From: Sulfurimonas sp. HSL3-1
Lineage (GTDB): Bacteria; Campylobacterota; Campylobacteria; Campylobacterales; Sulfurimonadaceae
Assembly: GCF_039645995.1 (NCBI RefSeq)
Contig: NZ_CP147920.1
Span: 1,302,001 to 1,366,000, forward strand
Reading direction: 5' to 3'
Length of the DNA stretch: 64,000 bases
The position numbers were made by a program, and so were the translations under genes. Below, piece by piece: positions 11,540 through 25,401 of this stretch (position 1 is the stretch's first letter; each line of letters starts with the position of its first letter). Under the pieces are notes generated by a model. The model ran no database searches. It was given only the letters and a program-made list of their open reading frames with translations, and had not been told where the DNA came from.

Positions 11540-11914
11540 GGTTTTGAGCTTCTCCCGCTTGGCGGCATCGAGCCGCCCGACCCGTCCGTCGGTCATGAGG
11601 TAGACCAGCCGGACATCGAGGGTAAAGAGCACCTCGTTTCCGCGCCGCACGGTCTGATGCATCTGCAGTCCCGTACCCCTTATAGACACCACTTCCGCAG
11701 AGACCTCCAGCAGATCCCCCAGCACCGCCGAACCGAGGTAATCCGCTTCGATGTGCCGCACGACAAAGTGCCCCCCTTCAAACAGCGGTGACTCCCCTTT
11801 GGAGAAGAAAAGTTCGCTGCGGGCGCGTTCGCAGAACTTCAGGTAGTTCGCGTAGTAGACGACCCCGCCCACGTCCGTATCTTCGTAATAGACGCGTATC
11901 GTCATCGGGGTCAC
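11525..11914 (-). CDS. YbgC/FadM-type acyl-CoA thioesterase
   Basis: The 129-residue hotdog-fold protein hydrolyses acyl-CoA thioesters. The signature YYEDTDVGGVVYYANYLKF, with the catalytic Asp, lies near residues 9-27 and is typical of YbgC. The length is usual. The start is either the GTG that overlaps the phosphorylase-like stop as GTGA (used here) or an ATG nine bases later; neither has a strong ribosome site, so coupling to the upstream gene is likely. In many proteobacteria ybgC belongs with tol-pal, but here it ends the glycogen cluster. Confidence 0.85.
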   Translation of the reverse strand: MTPMTIRVYYEDTDVGGVVYYANYLKFCERARSELFFSKGESPLFEGGHFVVRHIEADYLGSAVLGDLLEVSAEVVSIRGTGLQMHQTVRRGNEVLFTLDVRLVYLMTDGRVGRLDAAKREKLKTLLEE

Positions 11915-13548
11915 TTGTACATCAGTTCGTAGTACTCATGGGCCATCCGGCCCGAATCGAACTTCGGAATGACATCGGACATCGCCCGCTTCATCATGTG
12001 CGTCCACTGTTCGGGATGGTCGTAGTAGAGCGGGATAATCTGCTGTTCAAGCATATCCATCAGGTTTTTGTTGTCCTCGCGGTCCTGCACCTCCGTCGGG
12101 GTGCTGTGGTCGATCGGCGGGATGGTAAAGGCATTCATCCCGTTGATGGCGAACTCGGGGTGCCACCCGTCATCGGTGGAGAGGTGCAGTGTGCCGTTCA
12201 TGCTCGCGCTCATCCCGCTCGTCCCGCTGGCTTCCCGGGAGACCCGCGGCGTATTGAGCCAGATGTCGCTCCCTTTTTTAAGCACCGCGGAGAGTTCCAG
12301 CTCGTATCCCGTCAGTACGGCCATGCGCTTGAACTGGTGGCTGATATGGATCAGCTCGTTGAAGAGGTTGACCGCGCTGGTATCGAAGGGGTACGGTTTC
12401 CCGGCCCAGATCACCTGGATGGGCTGTTCCGTCCGCTCGATGAGCGCCTTGAAACGTTCGAAATCGAGCTTGAGCAGTCCGGGACGCTTGTACTCGGCGA
12501 AACGGCGCCCCCAGACGATGGTCAGGATATCCGGGTCGAACATTTTTCCGGTCTGGTCGGCCACGATATTGAAAAGCTGCCGCTTGAGGTGCTTTTTGCG
12601 GGCGAGCAGTTCGTAATCCTCGTGGCTGTCCAGGGCGGACTGCATCCCCTTGTCCGTCCAGAAACGGCGGTTCTGGGCATTCGTGATGGAGATGATCTCC
12701 GAGCGCCCTTTGCAGTTCGCCCACATGCGGTTTGCCACCTCTTCATGGAACTTGGAGACGGCATTGGTCATCTTTGACGCCCGCAGGGCGCCGACGGTCA
12801 GGTTGAAGTTTTCGCCGTACTCGCCCGTGATGTTGCGCACTTCGTCCATCTCCAGGCCGTTAAAGAAGCCGAAACGGTGCAGCAGGTGGATGTTGTGTTC
12901 CTCGTTGCCGGCGGCCTCGGGAGTATGGGTCGTGAAGGCGACGTGCTGCTTCAGCTCTTCAAGCGAACCGTAGCGTTTGTAGAGTTCGTAAGCCAGTGGC
13001 AGCGCGTGCCCCTCATTGAGGTGGTAGACATCCACATGGTGCTTGAGCGACTCCAGCACCTTGACGCCTCCGATGCCCAGGACGATCTCCTGGGAGATGC
13101 GGGTCTCCTCGTTGGCATCGTAGAGCTTATGGGTGATGGTGCGCGCGAGGAAGTCGTTTTCGGGGATGTCCGTCGAGAGCAGGATCACCGGAGCCGAGGA
13201 GAAGATGTCCGGCGGCAGGTAGTAGGCCTTGATATAGACCTCCTCCCCGTGGATCTTCACCGTCGCGCAGATGCCGAGATCTTTGAGGAAGTAATAGTGC
13301 TTGCGGATAAAGTTGATCTTGAGGCTGCGGTCCTCGTGCCGTCCCTGGTCGTAATAGCCGTAGCTCCACATAATACCCACACCGACCATGTTCTGTCGCA
13401 GGTCGTAGGCACTGCGCATGTGCGAACCCGCCAGGAACCCGAGGCCGCCCGAATAGACCTTCAGGGCCTGGTGAATGGCGAACTCCATGGAGAAGTAGGC
13501 AACAGGTTTGGCGTACTTGGGATCGAAATCGTAATCATGCAGGATCAT
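11911..13548 (-). CDS. GT35 glycogen phosphorylase-like protein lacking the PLP lysine
   Basis: The 545-residue protein belongs to the alpha-glucan phosphorylase family (short form). Evidence is AYFSMEFA with YSGGLGFLAGSH at the N-terminus, YHLNEGHA near 175, FTTHTPEAAGNEEH near 205, FAEYKRPG near 349 and EASGTSG near 439. The family uses pyridoxal phosphate bound to a lysine in the motif GTSGMKxxxNG to release glucose 1-phosphate. Here that position is serine (residue 447 in GTSGMSASMNG, confirmed from the codons). It may therefore be inactive as a phosphorylase or use another mechanism. It sits six bases after pgi, so a role in glucan metabolism is likely. Confidence 0.8.
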   Translation of the reverse strand: MILHDYDFDPKYAKPVAYFSMEFAIHQALKVYSGGLGFLAGSHMRSAYDLRQNMVGVGIMWSYGYYDQGRHEDRSLKINFIRKHYYFLKDLGICATVKIHGEEVYIKAYYLPPDIFSSAPVILLSTDIPENDFLARTITHKLYDANEETRISQEIVLGIGGVKVLESLKHHVDVYHLNEGHALPLAYELYKRYGSLEELKQHVAFTTHTPEAAGNEEHNIHLLHRFGFFNGLEMDEVRNITGEYGENFNLTVGALRASKMTNAVSKFHEEVANRMWANCKGRSEIISITNAQNRRFWTDKGMQSALDSHEDYELLARKKHLKRQLFNIVADQTGKMFDPDILTIVWGRRFAEYKRPGLLKLDFERFKALIERTEQPIQVIWAGKPYPFDTSAVNLFNELIHISHQFKRMAVLTGYELELSAVLKKGSDIWLNTPRVSREASGTSGMSASMNGTLHLSTDDGWHPEFAINGMNAFTIPPIDHSTPTEVQDREDNKNLMDMLEQQIIPLYYDHPEQWTHMMKRAMSDVIPKFDSGRMAHEYYELMYK

Positions 13549-13553
13549 TGCGA

Positions 13554-14819
13554 TCAGCCTTTGTCTGTAAATGTTTCGTAAAGGATCACCTTGCCGAGCT
13601 CGACGCCCGGCTGGTCATAGGTATTGACCAGCAGCATCGCTCCGACGAGGGACGTCAGCAGTTCGTAGTAGATGATCATGGTGCCGACGCTCGCGGCATC
13701 GATCTGTTCGATGACGATGCCGTCCGTCGGCACGCCGCTGCGCACGAGGCTTTCGCGGGTAGCCGCGCACTGGGCGTTGATGAGGGTACTGAAGCTCTTG
13801 CCGTTGATGAAATCGGTCTTTTCGATGTGCTTGAGCGAGATCTCGGGGATGACGAGCGGCGCGCCGAAATCCTCGATGCTGATAAAGGTGACCGTCTTGT
13901 CCTTCGGTCCTTCGATCAGCAGCTGCAAAAAGGAGTGCTGGTCCACCGAACCGATCAGCCCCACCGGCGTCATGCCGACGTGCGATCCCATCGCATCCAC
14001 CTTGCCCAGCGATTCGCCCCAGAGCTGCACGTACCACTTGGTAAAGTTCTCCAGGTCGTTGGCGTAGGAGAAGAGGACGTTGACGGAGTGTTCTCTGTCA
14101 TGTTCGTAGATGAAACACGCTTTCTCCAGCAGGTGCTGCTCTTTGCCCTCGAAGAAGGAGGTGAGGAAGCTTCCCGCCCCCGCCAGCAGCGCCGCCGTAT
14201 CGTAACCCGCCAGCGTCAGCGGAATGATGCCCACGGCGCTGAGCACGGAGAAGCGCCCGCCGACATTGTCGGGGATGTTGAACTGCCCAAGGCCGTACGC
14301 GTCGCCGAACTTTGAGAGGCTTGAACCTGCGTCGGTGATGACAAAGACACGCTCCCGGTCCGCACCGTCCAGTTCCAGGCCGAAATGCGCGATCAGCGTC
14401 TTGAAGATGGAGGTCGTTTCGATCGTACCGCCGGACTTGGAGATGACAACGAAGAGGGTCTTCTCCTTCGTCAGCTTCGCCATCGTGCGGGTGATGTCGA
14501 TGGGGTCGGAGTTCTCGAAAAAGTGCAGTTCGCGGGTTTTGTCGCCCCGGGACGCCAGCAGCGAATCCACCGCCTTGATCCCCAGTGAGGAGCCGCCGAT
14601 GCCGATGACGGCGATGTCCGTGATCGCCCCCGATGCCAGCAGGCTGTTCTGTGTCTCCAGCGCTTTGGCCGCTTCCACCAGCGTCCGGGAGCCTTCCGGA
14701 AGGTCATAATAGCCGATCCGTCCCTTGTGTTCTTCAGTGACGACGGCAAACGCCTCCTCCATGACCCGGTGCTGTGCCTCTGAACCCTCAAACGTAAAAT
14801 CGCGATCAAAACGTAACAT
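13554..14819 (-). CDS. pgi: Glucose-6-phosphate isomerase
   Basis: The 421-residue cytoplasmic enzyme interconverts glucose 6-phosphate and fructose 6-phosphate. The sugar-phosphate binding loop IGIGGSSLGIKAV is near residue 70, and VISKSGGTIETTS and the GGRFSVLS signature follow. The catalytic Glu/His region around VGMTPVGLIGSVDQHS is present. It is on the shorter side for the family. Position between glgB and the phosphorylase-like gene links the glucan cluster to central metabolism. The ATG has a GAGGGGA site. Confidence 0.93.
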   Translation of the reverse strand: MLRFDRDFTFEGSEAQHRVMEEAFAVVTEEHKGRIGYYDLPEGSRTLVEAAKALETQNSLLASGAITDIAVIGIGGSSLGIKAVDSLLASRGDKTRELHFFENSDPIDITRTMAKLTKEKTLFVVISKSGGTIETTSIFKTLIAHFGLELDGADRERVFVITDAGSSLSKFGDAYGLGQFNIPDNVGGRFSVLSAVGIIPLTLAGYDTAALLAGAGSFLTSFFEGKEQHLLEKACFIYEHDREHSVNVLFSYANDLENFTKWYVQLWGESLGKVDAMGSHVGMTPVGLIGSVDQHSFLQLLIEGPKDKTVTFISIEDFGAPLVIPEISLKHIEKTDFINGKSFSTLINAQCAATRESLVRSGVPTDGIVIEQIDAASVGTMIIYYELLTSLVGAMLLVNTYDQPGVELGKVILYETFTDKG

Positions 14820-14893
14820 TATTCATTCCCCTCATTCTTATTCATATTAGTATAGCCCCATTCTGGCCGAAAAATCACCACCTGACTGCGCGA

Positions 14894-16816
14894 CTATTGT
14901 GCAATCAGCTTTTTAAAGTAGACGACGCCCATCGGGGGCAGCGTCATCGCGAGCGAGAAGGGACGGCCGCATAGCGGCGTCTCTTCGGCATAGAGCACAC
15001 CCTCATTGCCGATCTCCCACCCCTCGTAAGCCTTGGCCTGGGAGTTGAAGATCTCCACGTATTCTCCGCCCTCGGGGAGTGCGAGCCGGTACCCCTCGCG
15101 CGTCTCGTCGGCGAAGTTGCAGACGACGTAGACGGTCTCGTCTGGGTTCTCGCTTTTGCGCATGAAGCTGATGCAGTTATGGCTGTAGTCGGCGTCGTCG
15201 ATCCACTCGAACCCCTTACGCTCTACGTCGTGCAGGTAGAGCGCCGGTTCGCTGCGGTAGAGACGGTTGAGCTCCGCCATCATCTTCTGCAGTCCCTGGT
15301 GCAGCGGGAACTCCAGCAGGTGCCACTCGAGGCTGTGCTTATACGCCCACTCGGCGTACTGGGCGAATTCCCCGCCCATAAAGAGCAGTTTCTTGCCCGG
15401 GTGGGCCATCATGTAGCCGTAAAGCGCGCGAAGGTTGGCGAACTTCTGGTTCGTATCGCCGGGCATCTTGTTGATGAGCGACCCTTTCATGTGGACCACT
15501 TCGTCGTGGCTCAGCGGCAGCATGAAGTTTTCGTCGAAAGCGTACCACATGCTGAAGGTGAGCTGGTCGTGGTGGTGCTGGCGGTAGACCGGGTCGCGGT
15601 GCATGTACGCAAGCGTGTCGTGCATCCACCCCATGTTCCATTTGAAGCCGAACCCGAGCCCGCCGACCTCGATCGGGCGCGTCACCATCGGCCAGGCCGT
15701 CGACTCCTCGGCGATCATCATGATATCCGGGTGTGCTCCGTAGGCCGCCGCGTTGAGCTGGCGCAGGAAGGCGACCGCTTCGAGATTCTCGTTGCCGCCG
15801 TGCTCGTTCGGGACCCATTCGCCCTCTTCGCGGGCGTAGTTGAGGTAGAGCATCGAGGCGACGGCGTCGACGCGGATCCCGTCGATGTGGTACTTCTCCA
15901 GCCAGAAGAGTGCCGAACTGATGAGGAAAGCCCTCACTTCGTTGCGGCCGTAGTTGAAGATGATGCTCCCCCACTCCGGGTGGTATCCCTGCCGCGGATC
16001 GGCATGTTCGTACAAAGCGGTGCCGTCGAAGTTGATCAGCCCGTGCATATCGACGGCGAAGTGCGAGGGCACCCAGTCCATGATGACGCCGATGCCGTTT
16101 TGGTGCAGGGCGTCGATCAGGTGCATCAGGTCCTGCGGTTCCCCGTAGCGCGCCGTCGCGCTGTAGTAGCCCGTCACCTGGTAGCCCCAGGAGCCGTAGT
16201 AGGGGTATTCGGTCAGCGGCATGAACTCGACGTGGGTATAGTTCATCTCCTTGAGATAGGCCACCAGCTCGTCCGCCAGCTCGCGGTAGGTCAGATAGCG
16301 GTCGCTCTCCTCGACCTTCCGTCGCCAAGAGCCCAAGTGCATCTCGTAGACGCTGACGGGAGCGTCGTGGCGGTTGTGCAGCGCGCGCGTTTGCATCCAT
16401 CCCCCGTCGTTCCAGCCGTAGCCGTCCAGCTCCCAGATGCGCGACGCGGAGTTGGAGGGCACCTCCGCGTAAAAGGCGAAGGGGTCCGCCTTGTCGTGCA
16501 CGATGTTATGGAATTTCGAGACGATATGGTACTTGTAGGTCAGCCCCGCTTCGACCCCCTGGATGAACCCTTCCCAGATCCCCGAGCCGTCTTCGCGCAG
16601 CCGGAGCGGGTGGCGATGGGTGTCGTAATCGTTGAAGTCTCCCCGGACGCTGACGCGCTCCGCGTTGGGCGCCCAGACGGCGAAATAGACGCCGCGCGCG
16701 CCGTCGCGCTCCATAAAGTGCGCCCCCATCTTCTCATAAAGCTTGGTATGGGTCCCCTCTTTGAAGAGGTAGATGTCCATGTCGGTAAAGCGGGAGATAT
16801 CGTAGTGGATCGTCAT
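14894..16816 (-). CDS. glgB: 1,4-alpha-glucan branching enzyme
   Basis: The 640-residue GH13 enzyme introduces alpha-1,6 branches into glycogen. An N-terminal CBM48-like domain (YFAVWAPNAERVSVRGDFN) is followed by the catalytic barrel with VEFMPLTEYP, GIRVDAVASMLY (nucleophile Asp), MIAEESTAWP (acid/base Glu) and LPLSHDEVVH. I start at the ATG giving MTIHYDISRF, preceded by CGGAGCC. A longer in-frame start would run 56 residues into glgA and is non-homologous. It follows glgA by 11 bases. Confidence 0.95.
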   Translation of the reverse strand: MTIHYDISRFTDMDIYLFKEGTHTKLYEKMGAHFMERDGARGVYFAVWAPNAERVSVRGDFNDYDTHRHPLRLREDGSGIWEGFIQGVEAGLTYKYHIVSKFHNIVHDKADPFAFYAEVPSNSASRIWELDGYGWNDGGWMQTRALHNRHDAPVSVYEMHLGSWRRKVEESDRYLTYRELADELVAYLKEMNYTHVEFMPLTEYPYYGSWGYQVTGYYSATARYGEPQDLMHLIDALHQNGIGVIMDWVPSHFAVDMHGLINFDGTALYEHADPRQGYHPEWGSIIFNYGRNEVRAFLISSALFWLEKYHIDGIRVDAVASMLYLNYAREEGEWVPNEHGGNENLEAVAFLRQLNAAAYGAHPDIMMIAEESTAWPMVTRPIEVGGLGFGFKWNMGWMHDTLAYMHRDPVYRQHHHDQLTFSMWYAFDENFMLPLSHDEVVHMKGSLINKMPGDTNQKFANLRALYGYMMAHPGKKLLFMGGEFAQYAEWAYKHSLEWHLLEFPLHQGLQKMMAELNRLYRSEPALYLHDVERKGFEWIDDADYSHNCISFMRKSENPDETVYVVCNFADETREGYRLALPEGGEYVEIFNSQAKAYEGWEIGNEGVLYAEETPLCGRPFSLAMTLPPMGVVYFKKLIAQ

Positions 16817-16827
16817 GTTGGCTCCGT

Positions 16828-18315
16828 TTATTGATGGCGGCTGCTGCGCCGTCCGCCGATAATGCGACAGTAGAGGTCGCCGTAGGCTTCGGCCGCGACT
16901 TCCCAGTCGAAACGCTGCTGCATCGCATTGAGACGCATCTGGTCGATGGCATCCGGGTCCCCGTACCAGATCTCCGTTGCCCATTTGACGGTATTGCTTA
17001 GCGCATCCGGCGTCGCAAAATCGAACTTGAAGCCGGTACCGCTTTGATGGTCGTTCCCGTAATTCCGGATCGTATCGTCCAGTCCGCCCGTTGCGCGGAC
17101 GATGGGCAGGGTGCCGTAGCGGAGGCTGTAGATCTGGTTCAGCCCGCAGGGCTCGAACAGGGAGGGCATCAGGAAAAGGTCGCTGCCCGCCTCGATGCGG
17201 TGGGCCAGGTCGTTGCGGTAGCCGATGTAACAGCCGAATTTATCCGGGTACTTGGCGGCCACGTCGCTGAAGAAGAATTCCGCCCAGGTCTCGCCCGTGC
17301 CCAGCAGCACGATCTGGATGTCCAGCTCCATCAGGTTCCAGATCGCCCCGGCCAGCAGGCCGATACCCTTCTGCTCCGCGAGCCGTCCGACCAGGCCGAT
17401 CAGCGGCACGTCCTCGCGTTCGGGGAGACCGAATTCGCGCTGCAGCTCCTGTTTGCAAATCGCTTTTCCGGCAAGGTTGTCGACGTCGAAGGTCTGCGGG
17501 ATCAGCGGATCGACCGCCGGGCTCCACTCGTCGTAATCGACGCCGTTGAGGATGCCGTAAAGCTTATGGGCGTTGGCGTCTATAAGCCCCTCCAGCCCCC
17601 AGCCGAACTCCGCCGTGCGGATCTCGTTGGCGTACTTGCGGCTGACGGCGTTGACGGCATCGGCGTGCACGATGCCCGCTTTGAGCAGGTTCACCCCGCC
17701 GAACTCTTCGAGTTCGTCGGCGTTGTAGTGTTCCCAGCCGACGCCGAGCACATCCATCGCGCCCTTGTAGAACTTGCCCTGGTGCTGGAGGTTGTGGATC
17801 GTCAGCAGCGTCCCGGTGTTCTCGAAGTCGGGATCGAAGGCGTAGGTCGTGTTGAGCAGCAGCGGGATCGACGCCGTGTGCCAGTCGTTCGCGTGGATGA
17901 CGTCGGGTTTGAACCGCAGCATCTTTGCGAGCTGGAACACCGCCTTGGAGAAAAAGATGAAACGATTGTCGTTGTCGCCGTAGGCCTGGCCGCCCTCGTC
18001 GTAGAGCCCCTTGCGGCCGAAAAAGCCTTCGTGATCGATAAAGTAGACGGGGACGTCGCTGCCGGGCAGCACCCCTTCGTACACGGCCGCCCACGCTTCG
18101 CCCATGCTTCCCATCGGCACGCCGAGGGAACCGTTGAGCTTTTTCAGCCCGTACTTCTCGGTATCAACAATGTAGTAACGCGGCATTACGACGCGGACAT
18201 CGTGTCCCAACGCGCGCAACGCCTTCGGAAGCGCGCCCGCTACGTCGGCGAGACCGCCGCTCTTGGCAAAAGGAACGGCTTCGGAGGCCGCCAGAAGAAT
18301 ATTGAATGATGTCAT
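16828..18315 (-). CDS. glgA: Glycogen/starch synthase (first of two paralogues)
   Basis: The 495-residue GT5 enzyme extends alpha-1,4-glucan from ADP-glucose (or UDP-glucose). The nucleotide-sugar motif KSGGLADVAGALPKAL is at the N-terminus, IHANDWHTASIPLLL follows in the middle, and the C-terminal FEPCGLNQIYSLRYGT carries the catalytic Glu. Length is normal. The ATG has a GAGGCAA site. It lies between the second synthase and glgB with short gaps, forming the elongation and branching core of the cluster. Confidence 0.93.
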   Translation of the reverse strand: MTSFNILLAASEAVPFAKSGGLADVAGALPKALRALGHDVRVVMPRYYIVDTEKYGLKKLNGSLGVPMGSMGEAWAAVYEGVLPGSDVPVYFIDHEGFFGRKGLYDEGGQAYGDNDNRFIFFSKAVFQLAKMLRFKPDVIHANDWHTASIPLLLNTTYAFDPDFENTGTLLTIHNLQHQGKFYKGAMDVLGVGWEHYNADELEEFGGVNLLKAGIVHADAVNAVSRKYANEIRTAEFGWGLEGLIDANAHKLYGILNGVDYDEWSPAVDPLIPQTFDVDNLAGKAICKQELQREFGLPEREDVPLIGLVGRLAEQKGIGLLAGAIWNLMELDIQIVLLGTGETWAEFFFSDVAAKYPDKFGCYIGYRNDLAHRIEAGSDLFLMPSLFEPCGLNQIYSLRYGTLPIVRATGGLDDTIRNYGNDHQSGTGFKFDFATPDALSNTVKWATEIWYGDPDAIDQMRLNAMQQRFDWEVAAEAYGDLYCRIIGGRRSSRHQ

Positions 18316-18364
18316 ATATTGCCTCGTGTTGGAATACGGAATTTCCCGGACGCGATAAAGGGGC

Positions 18365-19798
18365 TCATTTTAACGCGCTCCCGCTGATTTTCCGGTACAG
18401 CGCGGCGTACGCCGAGGCACTTTGACCCCAGGAGACATCCGCCTTCATATTGTGGGTTGCGACCCTGCTCCACGCTTTCGCGTCATTGAAGAGCCCGAGG
18501 GCCGCCTCAAAGGCGCCCAGGAGCGCCTCGGGAGTTGCGGCGTCAAAGGCGATCCCGCAGGGGCTCTGCGCTTCGGGGGCATACGCGACCGGGGCCACCG
18601 TATCGGCAAGCCCGCCGACACGGTGCACGACCGGCACGGCACCGTAGTGCGCCGCGATGAGCTGGTTCAGCCCGCAGGGTTCGAACAGGGAGGGCATCAG
18701 CAGGAAATCCGCCGCCGCGTACATGCGGTGGGCCAGCGCCTCGTCGTAGCCGAAAAAGAGGTGGATGTTGGGGTGCGCCTCCGCCGCCTTCTCGAAACGC
18801 GGGGCATACTGCGGCTCCCCCTCCCCCAGAACGGCGATATTGCACGGCAGCGCCGCCATCTGCGGCAGTGCCTCGAGGAGCAGGTCTATCCCCTTCTGCC
18901 AGGTAAAGCGCCCGATGAAGATAAAGAGCGGGAGCTCGGCATCGCAGAGGCCCGCCTCCGCCAGATAGTGCTTTTTGTTGGCGTGCTTGCCCCGCGGCGT
19001 TTTATAGAGGCGAAAAAGGCTACTGTCCGACTGCGGTGCGAAATGCTCCGTATCGATCCCGTTCGCGATGCCGGTCACTTTAGCCCGGTGGTGCTGCAGG
19101 TACCCCTCCAGCCCGCAGCCGAACCGGTGGGTGAGGATCTCCTCCGCATAGGTAGGGCTGACGGTCGTGACGGCATCGGCATACCCTATGCCCGCCTTCA
19201 TCAGGTTGATCCGGTCGTAGAATTCGATCCCTTCGAGGGTAAAGTGGCGCTTGTCCACTCCCAGCGCAGAGAGCGCACTTTTCGGGAACTCCCCCTGATA
19301 CGCGAGGTTGTGGATCGTATAGACGGTAGAGGCCTTCAGGGTATCGTCCTCGGCGATGATCAGCGCCGTCAGGGCCGTCTGCCAGTCGTTGAGATGGACG
19401 ATATCGCTCTGCAGGCGCCGGGCGAGCTCGCTTACCGCATAACTGAAAAGACCGAAACGCTGCGCATTGTCGTCGTACCCCTCGCCCGGCGGGCCGTAGA
19501 GGTAATCGCGGTCGCAGAGCTGCGGTTCATAGACAAAGAGGTAGGCGCGCCCTTCGAAGCGGCTCTCATAGACGGAAACGGTACGGCGTTCTATGCCCAG
19601 CATCACGTCAAAGAAGTCCGTCGGCCCTTCGATGCCGAAGCGCTGCCGGTCCACCGTGTGGTAGAGCGGCATCACCACGGTCACGTCGAAGGCGTCCGAG
19701 AGAGCCTTGGGGAGGCTGTAGCCGACGTCCGCCAGACCGCCGGTCTTTGCGAACGGGTACACCTCGCTGGCGGCGAAGAGTACACTCTGCTTACGCAT
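18365..19798 (-). CDS. glgA: Glycogen/starch synthase (second paralogue)
   Basis: The 477-residue GT5 protein has KTGGLADVGYSLPKAL, IVHLNDWQTALTALII and FEPCGLNQLIAAHYG, so the donor-binding and catalytic elements are intact. It is clearly diverged from the neighbouring glgA. I prefer the ATG at 19798, eight bases after an AGGGG site and overlapping the galT stop as ATGCGTAA; a GTG nine bases upstream is the alternative. In organisms with two synthases one copy often initiates or makes short chains, but which copy does so here cannot be told. Confidence 0.88.
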   Translation of the reverse strand: MRKQSVLFAASEVYPFAKTGGLADVGYSLPKALSDAFDVTVVMPLYHTVDRQRFGIEGPTDFFDVMLGIERRTVSVYESRFEGRAYLFVYEPQLCDRDYLYGPPGEGYDDNAQRFGLFSYAVSELARRLQSDIVHLNDWQTALTALIIAEDDTLKASTVYTIHNLAYQGEFPKSALSALGVDKRHFTLEGIEFYDRINLMKAGIGYADAVTTVSPTYAEEILTHRFGCGLEGYLQHHRAKVTGIANGIDTEHFAPQSDSSLFRLYKTPRGKHANKKHYLAEAGLCDAELPLFIFIGRFTWQKGIDLLLEALPQMAALPCNIAVLGEGEPQYAPRFEKAAEAHPNIHLFFGYDEALAHRMYAAADFLLMPSLFEPCGLNQLIAAHYGAVPVVHRVGGLADTVAPVAYAPEAQSPCGIAFDAATPEALLGAFEAALGLFNDAKAWSRVATHNMKADVSWGQSASAYAALYRKISGSALK

Positions 19799-20816
19799 CA
19801 GGTTCACCCCTCAGCAGTCTTGCCGCCGTTTCGGGGGCGACGGGGTTGATCATGACCTGCGTCGAGAGCTCAAACCCGCCGTGCCTGTAGAGCCGCGGCT
19901 GGATCCGGAGGGTAAAGCGGAACATATCGTCCGTCGTCGCATAGGGCGCCATGCCCTCGGGGACATGGAACGGGGGCGTGGCGATCTCGACGTTGAAAGC
20001 CAGGCACCCCAGCTGCCGTTCCAGCTTCGCGAGGACGTCCAGCAGCAGCGGTGCCAGGGGCTCGAAATCCTTCGGGCCGAGGGTGTCGATCTGGCCGCGC
20101 CGTTTTTCCGAGGCAATGATCACCTCGAACGGGTAGGCGCTTGCAAAGGGGCAATATGCCGTATAGCCCCCCTGCTCGGCGATGATGCGTTCTCCCGCCT
20201 GGCGCTCGTGGCTGATGATCGCCGCAACGAGCGGCGTGCCGTGCTCGCGAAAATAGTGTGCGTTGCGTTCATAATAGGCGCGCTGCGCCTCCGGGAGGAT
20301 CGGCAGGCCGATGAGCTGGGTGTGCGAATGGGGCTGGGTCGCCCCCGCGTCGCTCCCCTCGTTTTTAAACAGGGAGATATAGCCGATACGGATGTCCCGC
20401 CGCAGGTCCGCCACCCGCGCGCCCAGGGTCAGGAGCCAGTCCACGACCTCCTGTTCGCTCCACTGCGTCATGGAGGTGCGGTGCTCAGGTGTGTCGATGA
20501 TCACTTCGTGGGCCCCGAACCCGTCGTGGTATTCAAAAAGCCCGTAATGGTGCCGGTGGGGCGTCTCGATCTGCACGGCCTTGTAGAGGTTGGGGACGAC
20601 GCGGGTCTTCCACCCCGGCTCGTTTGCAAAACTCCCTTCGTCTCTGAGGGCGAAGATCTCCGGCGGCGTCAGCGATTCGTTCCCCTCGCAGAAGGGACAT
20701 TTGGCCACATGGTGGAACGCCTTGACACGTTTGGGGATGCAGTCAGGACGGTGGAGCCGTTCGGGGGCGATGAGGACGTGCACGTCGTGCAGCTTGTCGT
20801 ACCGGATCTCAGACAT
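19791..20816 (-). CDS. galT: Galactose-1-phosphate uridylyltransferase-like (GalT)
   Basis: The 341-residue HIT-superfamily protein has the nucleophile motif as HSHTQ (H-x-H-x-Q), an N-terminal CPFC pair probably binding zinc, and the C-terminal LRIQPRLYRHGGFELST. GalT exchanges UMP between UDP-glucose and galactose 1-phosphate. No galK or galE is in the cluster, and related proteins act as ADP-glucose phosphorylases, so a role in supplying or recycling nucleotide glucose for the two GlgA enzymes is plausible. The ATG has an AAAGGGGCGG site. Confidence 0.8.
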   Translation of the reverse strand: MSEIRYDKLHDVHVLIAPERLHRPDCIPKRVKAFHHVAKCPFCEGNESLTPPEIFALRDEGSFANEPGWKTRVVPNLYKAVQIETPHRHHYGLFEYHDGFGAHEVIIDTPEHRTSMTQWSEQEVVDWLLTLGARVADLRRDIRIGYISLFKNEGSDAGATQPHSHTQLIGLPILPEAQRAYYERNAHYFREHGTPLVAAIISHERQAGERIIAEQGGYTAYCPFASAYPFEVIIASEKRRGQIDTLGPKDFEPLAPLLLDVLAKLERQLGCLAFNVEIATPPFHVPEGMAPYATTDDMFRFTLRIQPRLYRHGGFELSTQVMINPVAPETAARLLRGEPDA

Positions 20817-20860
20817 TGCCGCCCCTTTGCATCAGATCGTGTACCATGTGCTCTTTTCTC

Positions 20861-22894
20861 CTAGACAAACCAGTGCTCCGCGTAAGTTTCATTCATATCG
20901 ATATGCAGCGATCCGTACCCCGGCAGCGTTTGGATAATCTCGTCGCCGTGGGTAATCTCGAAACGCAGATGGAAGACATCGAGCCCGAGGAACCCCTCGC
21001 GTGAGAGCGCCAGTTCCGGGCGCTCGTCGAAGGCGAACGCGAGCCGCTTATCCTGCAGGGTTCTCGCCATCGGCACCACCGCTTGCCGGCCGTTCTCTTC
21101 GATCGTCACAACCAGCATGCACCCCTTGGTGCGCAGCATCTCGGTGTCCCCTTCGAAAGCGAGGTAGACCTGTTCCTCGTCATGCCCGTAGTGGATCTTC
21201 TCGATGGGGCCGCGGACCCGGTCCATCGTCGAGTACCCCTTGCTTTCGTCGACCATACCGCTGCCCAGCCACTCGAAAAAGCTCGATTCCTTTCCGTCGA
21301 TGATCGGCGAGACCGCGCTCTGCGGGTAGGTGAGGAAAGCATCGCGCCCCTTCTGGGTGATGATCGGATCGAAAAGATCGGCCGGGGGCTGCATCCCCAG
21401 CAGGCGGTAGATAGCGATAAGGTGGTCGCGGAAAAGCGCGTCGAACTCTTCGGCGAAGTCCGTCGCGTGGTCGTCGCCGTACCACCAGAACCAGTCGCTG
21501 CATTCGGCGGCCAGGAAATGAAATCGGATCTTTTCCGCCGTCTCCGGGTCAACCCCGCCCCCGTGGTGGTCGGCATCGCGGCGGGTCTGGTAGATCAGTT
21601 CCCAGGCGCGGTTCTTCTCGACGTGGCCGCTCCAGGTGTCGAAGTTGCCGTAGATCCAGCTTCCCGGCGCCAGATGCGGCAGCGTCGGCTGATCGGGCTG
21701 GAGTGCAACCTCGTTCATCGTCACCGTCTGCAGGCCGTCGCTGCTCTTCAATCGGGCGTAGAGCGCGGTGAAGAAGTCGTAGGCGTTGTTTTCAAAGAAC
21801 TCCCAGGCGTTCTCCCCGTCAAGGATGACGAAGACGGTACGCTCCGCTTTTCCCGAAGCGATACCGCCGACGGAACGGATAAAGTGCTCCGCCGCTTCGT
21901 CCGCCGGTTTGAAACGGTAGGTAAAGCCGATGAGGTCGCTGAGCCCGTGGTCGCGGAAGCCGATGGTGACGCCGTCGAAACGGTAGGGGCTGTAGAGGTC
22001 CTCGCGGGCGCTGTTTTTGAGCGAACGGAACAAGATCTCCTCGTCCGTCGCAATCCATTTGAGACCGTGTTCCCGGTAAATGCCGACGCTGCGCTCGTCC
22101 ACCGCCCCTTCTGCCGGCCAGAACCCGACCGGGTCCGTTCCGAACGTCTTTTGATACAGGGCGATCGCGCGCCGTACCTGCTCCACCGCGTCTCCCTCGA
22201 GCGAGAGCGGGTTGGCCGGCAGCGTCGTGTGGGGATTGGCCTTTTTGGCGTTCCCGACATCGAGCAGCAGTGGCAGAATGGGGTGGTTGTACGGCGTCGT
22301 CGAGACGGCGATCGTCCCCGACTTCTGCAGCTGCGCGTAAAAAGGGAGGATCGTTGCGACAAAGGAGGTCAGCTCCTCGAGCAGCGCATGCTTGTCCCGC
22401 TGGGAGTAGGCATCCTGCTGCGCCAAAAGCTTCTTAACTACGCTGCTGTGCTGGCGCAGGTAGTTGCCGCACCATGCCAGCATAAAGAGCAGCTGCAGCT
22501 CCAGCAGCTGCGCGTGGCTGTAATCGTCGCGGTGGAAGAGCGCCGCATAGCGCGGCAGCGGCCGCACCATCGTTTCGAACTGCGTCGATTTGCACATCTT
22601 GACCATCCAGGCGCGCTCATGCTCCTCGAGCTGCTCCGTCGGTTTGATCCAGAGCGCCAAAAAGGCGTCGTTGGCAAGCGGATCGCGGTAGAGGTTCAGC
22701 TGTTCGATCAGCGGAGGGGTGACGTTGAACGTCGCCTTGAGACCCGGGAACCGCGTCAGCAGCCACGGCATCTCGTAGTAATCTTTGATGGCATGCAGGA
22801 ACACCCACGGCATCGTCATGACACCGCTGCTGTCCCGGTAATCGGGCTGGTGCATGTGCCAGATGAATGCGAGGTTCAGCGATGCTCTGCGCAT
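20861..22894 (-). CDS. Glycoside hydrolase family 57 (alpha-amylase/branching type)
   Basis: The 677-residue protein is a GH57 retaining alpha-glucan enzyme. Family motifs seen are WHMHQPDY at residues 12-19, WPAEGAVDE near 259, and FVILDGENAWEFF near 354-366, whose Asp is the acid/base. GH57 includes amylases, 4-alpha-glucanotransferases and branching enzymes, and I cannot choose between them from these motifs. The chosen ATG overlaps the preceding stop as TAATG, indicating translational coupling; an upstream in-frame ATG adds five residues. Confidence 0.88.
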   Translation of the reverse strand: MRRASLNLAFIWHMHQPDYRDSSGVMTMPWVFLHAIKDYYEMPWLLTRFPGLKATFNVTPPLIEQLNLYRDPLANDAFLALWIKPTEQLEEHERAWMVKMCKSTQFETMVRPLPRYAALFHRDDYSHAQLLELQLLFMLAWCGNYLRQHSSVVKKLLAQQDAYSQRDKHALLEELTSFVATILPFYAQLQKSGTIAVSTTPYNHPILPLLLDVGNAKKANPHTTLPANPLSLEGDAVEQVRRAIALYQKTFGTDPVGFWPAEGAVDERSVGIYREHGLKWIATDEEILFRSLKNSAREDLYSPYRFDGVTIGFRDHGLSDLIGFTYRFKPADEAAEHFIRSVGGIASGKAERTVFVILDGENAWEFFENNAYDFFTALYARLKSSDGLQTVTMNEVALQPDQPTLPHLAPGSWIYGNFDTWSGHVEKNRAWELIYQTRRDADHHGGGVDPETAEKIRFHFLAAECSDWFWWYGDDHATDFAEEFDALFRDHLIAIYRLLGMQPPADLFDPIITQKGRDAFLTYPQSAVSPIIDGKESSFFEWLGSGMVDESKGYSTMDRVRGPIEKIHYGHDEEQVYLAFEGDTEMLRTKGCMLVVTIEENGRQAVVPMARTLQDKRLAFAFDERPELALSREGFLGLDVFHLRFEITHGDEIIQTLPGYGSLHIDMNETYAEHWFV

Positions 22895-25401
22895 TAGACT
22901 GTGGCCCACTCCGCGATCTTGGCGGTATATTCCGAAAGGATCTCCTCGCCGCGTTTATCCGACTCCGCCTGGATATAGAGGTTGAGACTGTCGTTGTACT
23001 GGTCTGGGATCATCAGGATCCAGTCGTTGGCATCGAGCCAGATCTTCACCCCGTCGAGGGTCGACGCGTCTTTACCCTTGGCATCCTCGAGGAAGCGGCG
23101 CATCATCTTGCCCTTGTGGGACTGGCTGCACGCTGCCTGGGCCGCGCGGTAATAGAATTTCGGCAGCGATGCGATCAGGTCGGAGAGTTTGACGTCGAAC
23201 TTGATCATCAGCTCCAGGATCTTCAACGTCGCGAACATGCTGTCACGGTGCGTCGCGAAGGCGGTAAAGGCGAAGTTCCCCTCCCCTGTCGCCACCAGGT
23301 CGTACTGGCGCATCTGCTCGGATTTGAAGTTCGCGTACTGCCCCCGTTCGATCTCCAGGGCGTCGAAGTAGACAATGTCCGCCGCCCAGGTCGGCAGGAA
23401 GACTTTCATCTTCTCGCCCCGTTCGCGCGCTTCCATGTTCAGCAGCGTCAGTACGATATAGAGGGCCGTCTGCTTCTCGAGCACCTTCCCTTCGTCGCAC
23501 ACGATCTCCAGACGCTGGCCGTAGGGGTAGACCAAAAAGCCTGCATCGAGTTGCATGGATTGGATCACGGCGCTCAGGTCGCTGACGGAGCGCTTGACCA
23601 GGGAGTTGATGTTCGCGAGGCGCTGCTCATCCGCATAGGCGTTGAAGATGATATTGTCCACCTCCATGTCCCGCAGGATATCCGGATAGACCTCGTACCC
23701 CATCCCGTGCATCACGTCCACGGCGATCCGGTACCCGCCGCGCTTGAAGAGGTGGGCATCGAAGAGGCGTTCCATCTGCTTCTGATAGGCGGCATACTCT
23801 TTGGCGTGGTCGGACTCGAAAATCTGGCCGATCTGGGAGAAGTCCACCCGGCGGAAGGTCTCTTTGAAAAAGGCCTTTTCCACCTTCTTTGCCACCTCGT
23901 TGTTGATCCGCAGGGCTTCATGGTTGTAGAAGGTGATGACCGTACTGGTCGGGTCGTCGATCTGCTGGCGGAAGTAGACCCCGGCGACGACGCCGTTGTC
24001 CATGGAGAGGCTGCAGCGCAGGACCGAGGAGGGAATGCCGTTGTAATCCTTGACGTTGACGCCGGACGAGAGCAGGCCCCCGACGAAGGCGCGCTTGAGC
24101 ATCCGCGATCCCTTGTTGTAGTCCCGGGCCATGACGACCGTCGAACCGATGGGCAGCTGGGCGCCGAACGCTTCGGCAAGCTTCGTTGCCATCTCGCAGG
24201 AGAGCTCGACGTTGGATTTCCCGATGACGTAGCCGTTCTCGAAGATGGAGTTCTTGTAGCGGCTCCCGAGGATGACGCTGCGGCTGACGATGGCGGCGTC
24301 CTCGATCACCTTGTGCGGCCAGATCGTGACGTCTTTTTCGACGGTGACCAGCTGGCCGATCTCACACTCTTCGGCCAGGATCATCCCCGCCTTCGCCGTG
24401 ACGTTCTTGCCGATCTTGTTGTCGTTGCAGATGACGCAGCCGTCAAAGAGGGCGTGTTTGTCGACGTTGACCCGCTCCCACAGTACGCTGTTGCGCACCT
24501 TGCTCTCTTTCCCGATCTCGCAGTCGTCGCCGACAACGACGTTGTTCAGCTTTGTCCCCTTGCCGATCGTGACGTTCCGTCCCAGGACGACCGTCCCGAT
24601 GATCTCGACGCTGCTGTCGAGTTCATAGGGCTCGTCGCTGAAGAGCACGCCGTCAGGGTACTGCCGGCGGACCGGCGGCATCTGCACCTTCACCCTGCCC
24701 CCGAGGATATCCTCGTAGACATCGCGGTAGCTCTCCGGGTTGCCGACGTCGCGCCAGTACCCTTCGGCGTTCCCGGCCATCAGGGGAACCCCTTCGCGCA
24801 TCAGCAGCGGGAAAAGGTCCTTGGCGAAGTCGAAGTTCTCGTTGCTCGGGATATAGGAGAGGATCTCCGGTTCGATGACGTAGATCCCCGTATTGATCGT
24901 ATCGCTGAAGACCTCGCCCCAGCTCGGCTTTTCAAGAAACTTCTCGATCCGGCCCTCTTCGTTCGCGATCACCACCCCGAACTCCAGGGGGTTTTCGACG
25001 GAAGTGAGCGTAATCGTCAGCTTCGAATCTTTCTGCGCGTGGTAATCGAAGATCTTCTTGAAATCGAAATCGGTCACCAGGTCACCGCTGATGATGATGA
25101 AGTTGTCGTCGCCGATATGCTCTTCGGCCAGCTTGACCGCCCCCGCCGTGCCGTAATCGTCATCGGGCAGGACGTAGGTGATATTGATGCCCAGGTGGCT
25201 ACCGTCTTTGAAATAGTCCCGGATGACATCGGGCTTGAAGTAGAGCAGCACGATAAACTCGGTGATCCCGAGCTCCTTCAGGGTCAACATCGTGTGCTCC
25301 ATCATCGGACGGTTCACGATCGGCAGCATCGGCTTGGGACGCGAATGGGTTAACGGCTGGATCCTCGTTCCAAACCCACCTGCCATAACAACGGCTTTCA
25401 T
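22894..25401 (-). CDS. Nucleotidyltransferase / left-handed helix / degenerate phosphohexomutase fusion
   Basis: The 835-residue protein has three parts. Residues 1-235 form a sugar-phosphate nucleotidyltransferase with MAGGFGTRIQPLT and the metal/substrate motifs SGDLVTDFDF and FLEKPSWGEV. Residues 255-385 form hexapeptide repeats. Residues 390-835 form a phosphomannomutase/phosphoglucomutase-like domain. The mutase domain has lost its phosphoserine loop (FRQQIDDPTS near 477-486) and its DGDxDR metal loop (YPYGQR, 625-630), so mutase activity is unlikely. Such fusions are often annotated mannose-1-phosphate guanylyltransferase. Here it may make the NDP-glucose used by GlgA, since no separate glgC is seen. 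Confidence 0.8.
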   Translation of the reverse strand: MKAVVMAGGFGTRIQPLTHSRPKPMLPIVNRPMMEHTMLTLKELGITEFIVLLYFKPDVIRDYFKDGSHLGINITYVLPDDDYGTAGAVKLAEEHIGDDNFIIISGDLVTDFDFKKIFDYHAQKDSKLTITLTSVENPLEFGVVIANEEGRIEKFLEKPSWGEVFSDTINTGIYVIEPEILSYIPSNENFDFAKDLFPLLMREGVPLMAGNAEGYWRDVGNPESYRDVYEDILGGRVKVQMPPVRRQYPDGVLFSDEPYELDSSVEIIGTVVLGRNVTIGKGTKLNNVVVGDDCEIGKESKVRNSVLWERVNVDKHALFDGCVICNDNKIGKNVTAKAGMILAEECEIGQLVTVEKDVTIWPHKVIEDAAIVSRSVILGSRYKNSIFENGYVIGKSNVELSCEMATKLAEAFGAQLPIGSTVVMARDYNKGSRMLKRAFVGGLLSSGVNVKDYNGIPSSVLRCSLSMDNGVVAGVYFRQQIDDPTSTVITFYNHEALRINNEVAKKVEKAFFKETFRRVDFSQIGQIFESDHAKEYAAYQKQMERLFDAHLFKRGGYRIAVDVMHGMGYEVYPDILRDMEVDNIIFNAYADEQRLANINSLVKRSVSDLSAVIQSMQLDAGFLVYPYGQRLEIVCDEGKVLEKQTALYIVLTLLNMEARERGEKMKVFLPTWAADIVYFDALEIERGQYANFKSEQMRQYDLVATGEGNFAFTAFATHRDSMFATLKILELMIKFDVKLSDLIASLPKFYYRAAQAACSQSHKGKMMRRFLEDAKGKDASTLDGVKIWLDANDWILMIPDQYNDSLNLYIQAESDKRGEEILSEYTAKIAEWATV

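Follow-up and report, generated by a model that had tools for sequence, protein, structure and literature searches.

The window analysed here is the whole 64,000-nucleotide stretch of DNA. An open reading frame at 11911..13548 on its minus strand, with an ATG start, encodes a 545-residue protein (P0001) and is the last of eight genes in a minus-strand glycogen cluster (11911–25401). The features of the locus are listed below.

11911..13548, minus strand: GT35-type protein P0001 without the PLP lysine (TIGR02094, 441 bits; the genome's sole GT35)
12193..12225, minus strand: GTSGMSASMNG motif, residues 442–452, including Ser447 in place of the PLP lysine (sequence and alignment)
12232..12234, minus strand: Glu439, corresponding to the glutamate conserved across GT35 (MalP E638), invariant (alignment)
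12289..12312, minus strand: remodelled cofactor-pocket loop, residues 413–420 (TGYELELS; alignment; K forms have ENY/EDY, and Ala at 420)
13554..14819, minus strand: glucose-6-phosphate isomerase (Pgi), same operon (NF003016, 548 bits)
14894..16834, minus strand: glycogen branching enzyme GlgB (TIGR01515, 876 bits)
16828..18315, minus strand: glycogen synthase GlgA, copy 1 (TIGR02095, 531 bits)
18365..19807, minus strand: glycogen synthase GlgA, copy 2 (TIGR02095, 496 bits)
19791..20816, minus strand: GalT-like hexose-1-phosphate nucleotidylyltransferase (below the galT_1 cut-off)
20861..22909, minus strand: GH57 alpha-glucan-active enzyme (PF03065)
22894..25401, minus strand: sugar-nucleotide synthase and phosphohexomutase fusion, 835 residues (PF00483, LbH, PF02878/PF02879)

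The corresponding loci of relatives also contain Pgk, Pfk, GAPDH and phosphoglucomutase. The 835-residue fusion (NTP transferase, LbH and phosphohexomutase) may stand in for GlgC as the supplier of nucleotide sugar, because glgC models match only far below their cut-off. The GalT-like protein is divergent and is kept in related glycogen clusters.

P0001 scores 441 bits against TIGR02094 (alpha-glucan family phosphorylase; cut-off 191.7), which places it in family GT35, and 56.6 against PF00343 (cut-off 27); the curated GlgA (GT5) model gives 30.7 bits, below its cut-off of 328. The motifs YSGGLG (residue 32), LNEGH (177), FTTHTP (205) and EYKRPG (352) are all present, so the active-site framework described by the original prediction is indeed preserved. 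In place of the GT(S/G)xMK motif, which carries the Schiff-base lysine of GT35 enzymes, P0001 has GTSGMSASMNG. Ser447 is encoded by an AGC codon at window positions 12210–12208 on the minus strand and aligns with Lys646, the PLP lysine of E. coli MalP; the original prediction had read this serine codon correctly, without giving the strand. Judged by its sequence, P0001 is a GT35 protein, yet it departs from the family at the cofactor residue. No second GT35, PLP-type or other, was found elsewhere in the 2.5-Mb genome. Comparison of the gene with its two nearest orthologues (94% identical) gives a dN/dS of about 0.05, which indicates strong purifying selection and excludes a pseudogene; the original prediction had already judged one unlikely from the intact motifs.

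A contig scan yielded 32 homologous loci (61–94% identity in Campylobacterota, 52–57% in Bacteroidota), all with serine or threonine at the lysine position. Such proteins are termed here the S/T form, and those that retain the lysine the K form. Together with sequences from the genome surveys, the full set comprises 84 short S/T-form and 48 K-form sequences; the former have threonine (55), serine (28) or alanine (1) at this position, and the latter have lysine in every case. In a tree built without the lysine column, the S/T sequences group in a single clade with 100/100 support, which answers the question, raised with the original prediction, of whether Ser/Thr at this position defines a clade in a GT35 alignment. 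The stem branch is long (0.88), and the sister of the clade is L086, a 552-residue, lysine-bearing protein from a Bacteroidota MAG (G254). A single clade with a lysine-bearing sister implies that the lysine was lost once, on the long stem, and was never regained in the sample. On this sequence evidence, the S/T clade is ancient and distinct, and spans two phyla, Campylobacterota and Bacteroidota. Sequencing error, chance or a mutation in a single strain is excluded by the agreement of 84 homologues. The alanine case (L054) is found in a genome that is 100% complete on a single contig (G061); it argues for the need for a small side chain, and not a hydroxyl, at this position, and makes a catalytic role of the Ser/Thr hydroxyl unlikely. 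As a short GT35 that keeps the PLP lysine, L086 (L154) is a useful intermediate.

Databases label the proteins of the S/T clade as ordinary 'alpha-glucan family phosphorylase', such that in many Campylobacterota and Bacteroidota glycogen breakdown is annotated on a lysine-less enzyme whose activity is a prediction. No description of a lysine-less GT35 was found in the literature accessible without subscription. The P0001 lineage is a real and previously uncharacterised variant of GT35.

The AlphaFold2 model of P0001, built with 66 sequences, displays a confident GT-B fold (pLDDT 94.2, pTM 0.93), which is predicted to be of the phosphorylase type. The best structural match (Foldseek, VIA-align 2) is the Segatella copri glycogen phosphorylase (PDB code 9l6i), with a Z of 35.4 and 2.1 Å over 534 residues; next come the human and E. 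coli phosphorylases, at Z of about 32 (MalP about 32.4). The E. coli glycogen synthase with ADP (PDB code 2qzs) has a Z of 32.3, level with MalP. For a K-form control (L041, AlphaFold2 pLDDT 90.2), the 50 matches listed are all phosphorylases with Z of at least 30, and none of them is a glycogen synthase. The models thus hint that the S/T form is more synthase-like in shape than the K form, in a comparison of Z values that is sensitive to model length and domain closure (open or closed).

Compared with other GT35/TIGR02094 proteins (9l6i and the Campylobacterota K forms), P0001 has the same fold, catalytic Arg/Lys/Glu/His/Asn residues, glycine and GTSG loops and glycogen operon, but it differs in the absence of the PLP lysine (Ser, Thr or Ala in the clade), in about ten further pocket changes and in about 40 missing profile positions. 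It shares the GT-B fold and all substrate-phosphate residues with the E. coli maltodextrin and glycogen phosphorylases (TIGR02093, PF00343 core), but is much shorter, is about 21% identical in structural alignment and has Lys646 replaced. The likeness to GT5 GlgA extends to the fold, the Arg/Lys phosphate pair, the glutamate, the G-Y pocket motif and the shared operon; in contrast to GlgA, to which it is 17% identical in structural alignment, P0001 retains the GT35 YSGGLG, HTP and GTSG elements and scores below the GT5 cut-offs.

Active-site residues are numbered as in P0001, with E. coli MalP numbers (Met1 = 1) in brackets. Residues Gly34 and Gly35 (114, 115), His208 (346), Asn290 (450), Trp297 (457), Arg349 (535), Tyr353 (539), Lys354 (540), Tyr415 (614), Glu439 (638), Thr443 (642) and Ser444 (MalP Gly643) are invariant and common to the S/T and K forms, and residue 348 (534) is arginine in 83 of 84 S/T sequences. 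The substrate and phosphate residues of GT35 enzymes (MalP R535, K540, E638, H346 and N450) are therefore all invariant in the P0001 clade. For the site assignment, PLP roles were drawn from the literature (PMC11046441). The established roles of PLP in muscle phosphorylase were used as well. By alignment, the invariant set spans the binding sites of glucose, of the substrate phosphate and of the PLP 5'-phosphate.

The fixed differences between the two forms (K-form residues in brackets) are Val345 (Gly), Trp346 (Phe), Pro385 (Ala), Tyr386 (His), Gly414 (Asn/Asp), Glu416 (Asn/Gly/Asp), Ser420 (Ala; Gly in L086), Gln292 (Val/Ile), Asn293 (His) and Ser447 (Lys). The sister protein L086 retains the K pattern at most of the differing pocket positions. 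Since about ten pocket positions changed alongside the lysine while the catalytic residues were retained, the PLP pocket was remodelled as one unit. About 40 positions of the TIGR02094 profile (325–364), after the ITN motif, are missing in P0001; this gap is excluded as the cause of PLP loss, because most of it is also present in the lysine-bearing L086.

Among 248 Campylobacterota genomes, a TIGR02094 protein is found in 35, GlgA in 35 and both in 34. The S/T form is present in 30 (20 alone and 10 with the K form), and the K form alone in four. All 30 S/T genomes contain GlgA (Fisher 8e-34, with shared ancestry ignored), and a GT35 of one form or the other (K or S/T) occurs in 34 of the 35 GlgA genomes. 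One family (f8) has both genes, K and S/T, in the same cluster, separated by a few kb. One Campylobacterota genome without GlgA has a GT35 frame with stops in all three matched pieces (G053:C1:456702-458231, L158); this copy has apparently been degenerating since the loss of glycogen synthesis.

The S/T form was detected in 24 of 198 Bacteroidota genomes (23 were read, and one, G429, was assigned by match pattern only). A PLP-type GT35 (K-form TIGR02094 or TIGR02093) occurs in none of these 24 and in 146 of the other 174 (Fisher 9e-17, with ancestry ignored); for the 146, K-form sequences were read from some of the genomes, and the remainder were assigned by match pattern. It is as if the S/T form replaces the PLP-type phosphorylase in Bacteroidota, an exclusion that is confounded by phylogeny. 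The MAG G254, found by a separate route, has both the S/T form and the short K form L086. A homologue of the TIGR01515 branching enzyme is present in all S/T Bacteroidota tested, although in eight it scores under the curated cut-off. Most S/T Bacteroidota have a full-length GT5 GlgA or a GT3 synthase, which excludes the S/T protein as a general replacement for GlgA; six (G254, G261, G374, G457, G381 and G339) have the branching-enzyme homologue and neither a full-length GT5 nor a GT3. A protein of about 270 residues in S/T Bacteroidota (L165–L173) matches only the N-terminal half of GlgA; it was rejected as a partner of the S/T protein, since in the loci read it adjoins GlmS/PanC and not the S/T gene. 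The original prediction did not extend to the spread over two phyla, the setting in a glg operon, the coordinated changes in the PLP pocket or the way in which the S/T form and PLP-type phosphorylases exclude each other.

The S/T protein is probably catalytic and would act on alpha-1,4-glucan within glycogen metabolism; phosphorolysis is put forward tentatively as its reaction. The explanation that we favour over an NDP-sugar glucosyltransferase, with slightly less than even confidence, is that of an active retaining glucan phosphorylase working without covalent PLP. Phosphorolysis is the first choice, as the S/T form substitutes for PLP phosphorylases, separate synthases co-occur, and Pgi and, in relatives, glycolytic genes adjoin. 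The PLP aldehyde of ordinary GT35 enzymes serves to anchor the cofactor and takes no part in the chemistry; acid/base catalysis falls to the 5'-phosphate. As only the PLP phosphate is needed for chemistry, an untethered source of phosphate is plausible. The non-reducing end of the glucan would sit in the usual GT-B cleft; Arg349 and Lys354, together with the YSGGLG and GTSG loops, would bind the inorganic phosphate that receives the terminal glucose. The product, glucose-1-phosphate, would then enter glycolysis through phosphoglucomutase and the neighbouring Pgi. P0001 lacks the PLP anchor but has an intact 5'-phosphate site, and the phosphate there probably comes from a non-covalent ligand, which may be another phosphate, a nucleotide or PLP that is only loosely bound. 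The original prediction of a PLP-independent glycosyltransferase therefore stands in that activity without covalent PLP is most likely; 'PLP-independent' is unproven, as the lysine only tethers PLP, and loosely bound PLP or another phosphate may be in the pocket.

A precedent in working principle is provided by the GT4 trehalose phosphorylases, which need no PLP. These are also retaining GT-B enzymes and use glucose-1-phosphate (PMC8950772), but they belong to another family and act on another acceptor.

Several observations weigh against phosphorolysis. The conserved Arg, Lys and Glu serve NDP-sugar enzymes such as GlgA too, so their conservation is not phosphate-specific. The ten Campylobacterota genomes with both forms are as compatible with a distinct activity as with redundancy, and the exclusion in Bacteroidota has the phylogenetic confound given above. 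Furthermore, the pocket change exceeds the loss of the lysine (Val345, Trp346, Pro385, Tyr386, Gly414, Glu416 and Ser420), which points to a new ligand more than to PLP that has simply lost its tether. A natural lysine-less lineage is in either case a test of the contribution of PLP: if the S/T protein still phosphorolyses glucan, PLP is replaceable, and if it uses nucleotide sugars, the lineage has switched between two retaining GT-B chemistries.

The second of these outcomes, an NDP-sugar-dependent retaining alpha-glucosyltransferase of synthase- or primer-like type, is the main rival reading, possible but less likely than phosphorolysis. The nucleoside of ADP- or UDP-glucose would occupy the old PLP pocket, with its phosphates at the PLP-phosphate and substrate-phosphate sites. 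In agreement with this, the E-N/D-Y sequence ahead of the pocket tyrosine has become x-G-Y-E, and TGYELELS aligns with IGYHEAFS of E. coli GlgA, where the tyrosine of the G-Y motif (Tyr355) stacks on adenine. The near-equal Z values of 2qzs and MalP point the same way, as does the K-form control without a synthase among its 50 listed matches (an absence, not a proof), but Z varies with model length and open or closed state, and profile comparison to GlgA fails to separate the S/T from the K forms, the S/T form being no closer to it (scores 53.7 and 58.9). An NDP-sugar synthase is encoded in the operon, and the six Bacteroidota with neither GT5 nor GT3 could use the S/T protein in this way; however, nearly all remaining S/T genomes encode a canonical synthase of GT5 or GT3, with two in the P0001 genome, and the S/T distribution follows the loss of the PLP phosphorylase, not of the synthase. 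It is similarly possible, though less likely than not, that PLP was shed and the pocket returned to a nucleotide site, giving either an NDP-glucose alpha-glucosyltransferase or a nucleotide that replaces PLP in glycogen breakdown. If this reading is true, the S/T protein would be the first GT35 other than a PLP phosphorylase.

Relative to phosphorolysis without covalent PLP, an ordinary PLP phosphorylase that binds its cofactor through a different lysine, or non-covalently in the old site, is improbable. The aromatic pocket residues Trp297 and Tyr415 and the 5'-phosphate loop are retained, and the clade has specific, near-invariant lysines (Lys30, Lys83 and Lys318); these lysines do not align beside the face of the pocket ring, with the possible exception of Lys30 next to the glycine loop, and the pocket changes are concerted with the loss of the lysine. 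About equally improbable is a pseudoenzyme of glycogen metabolism that binds glucan or has a regulatory function without catalysis; the original prediction had raised a regulatory glucan-binding protein, but nothing found points to a purely regulatory one. In its favour, every characterised GT35 enzyme holds its essential cofactor by the residue that is lost here, and the K form co-occurs in 10 genomes. Pseudoenzymes usually lose some catalytic residues, however, whereas those of the glucosyl and phosphate sites are unchanged in all 84 sequences from two phyla, selection on the P0001 gene is not relaxed, and the S/T protein is the sole GT35 in most genomes that have it.
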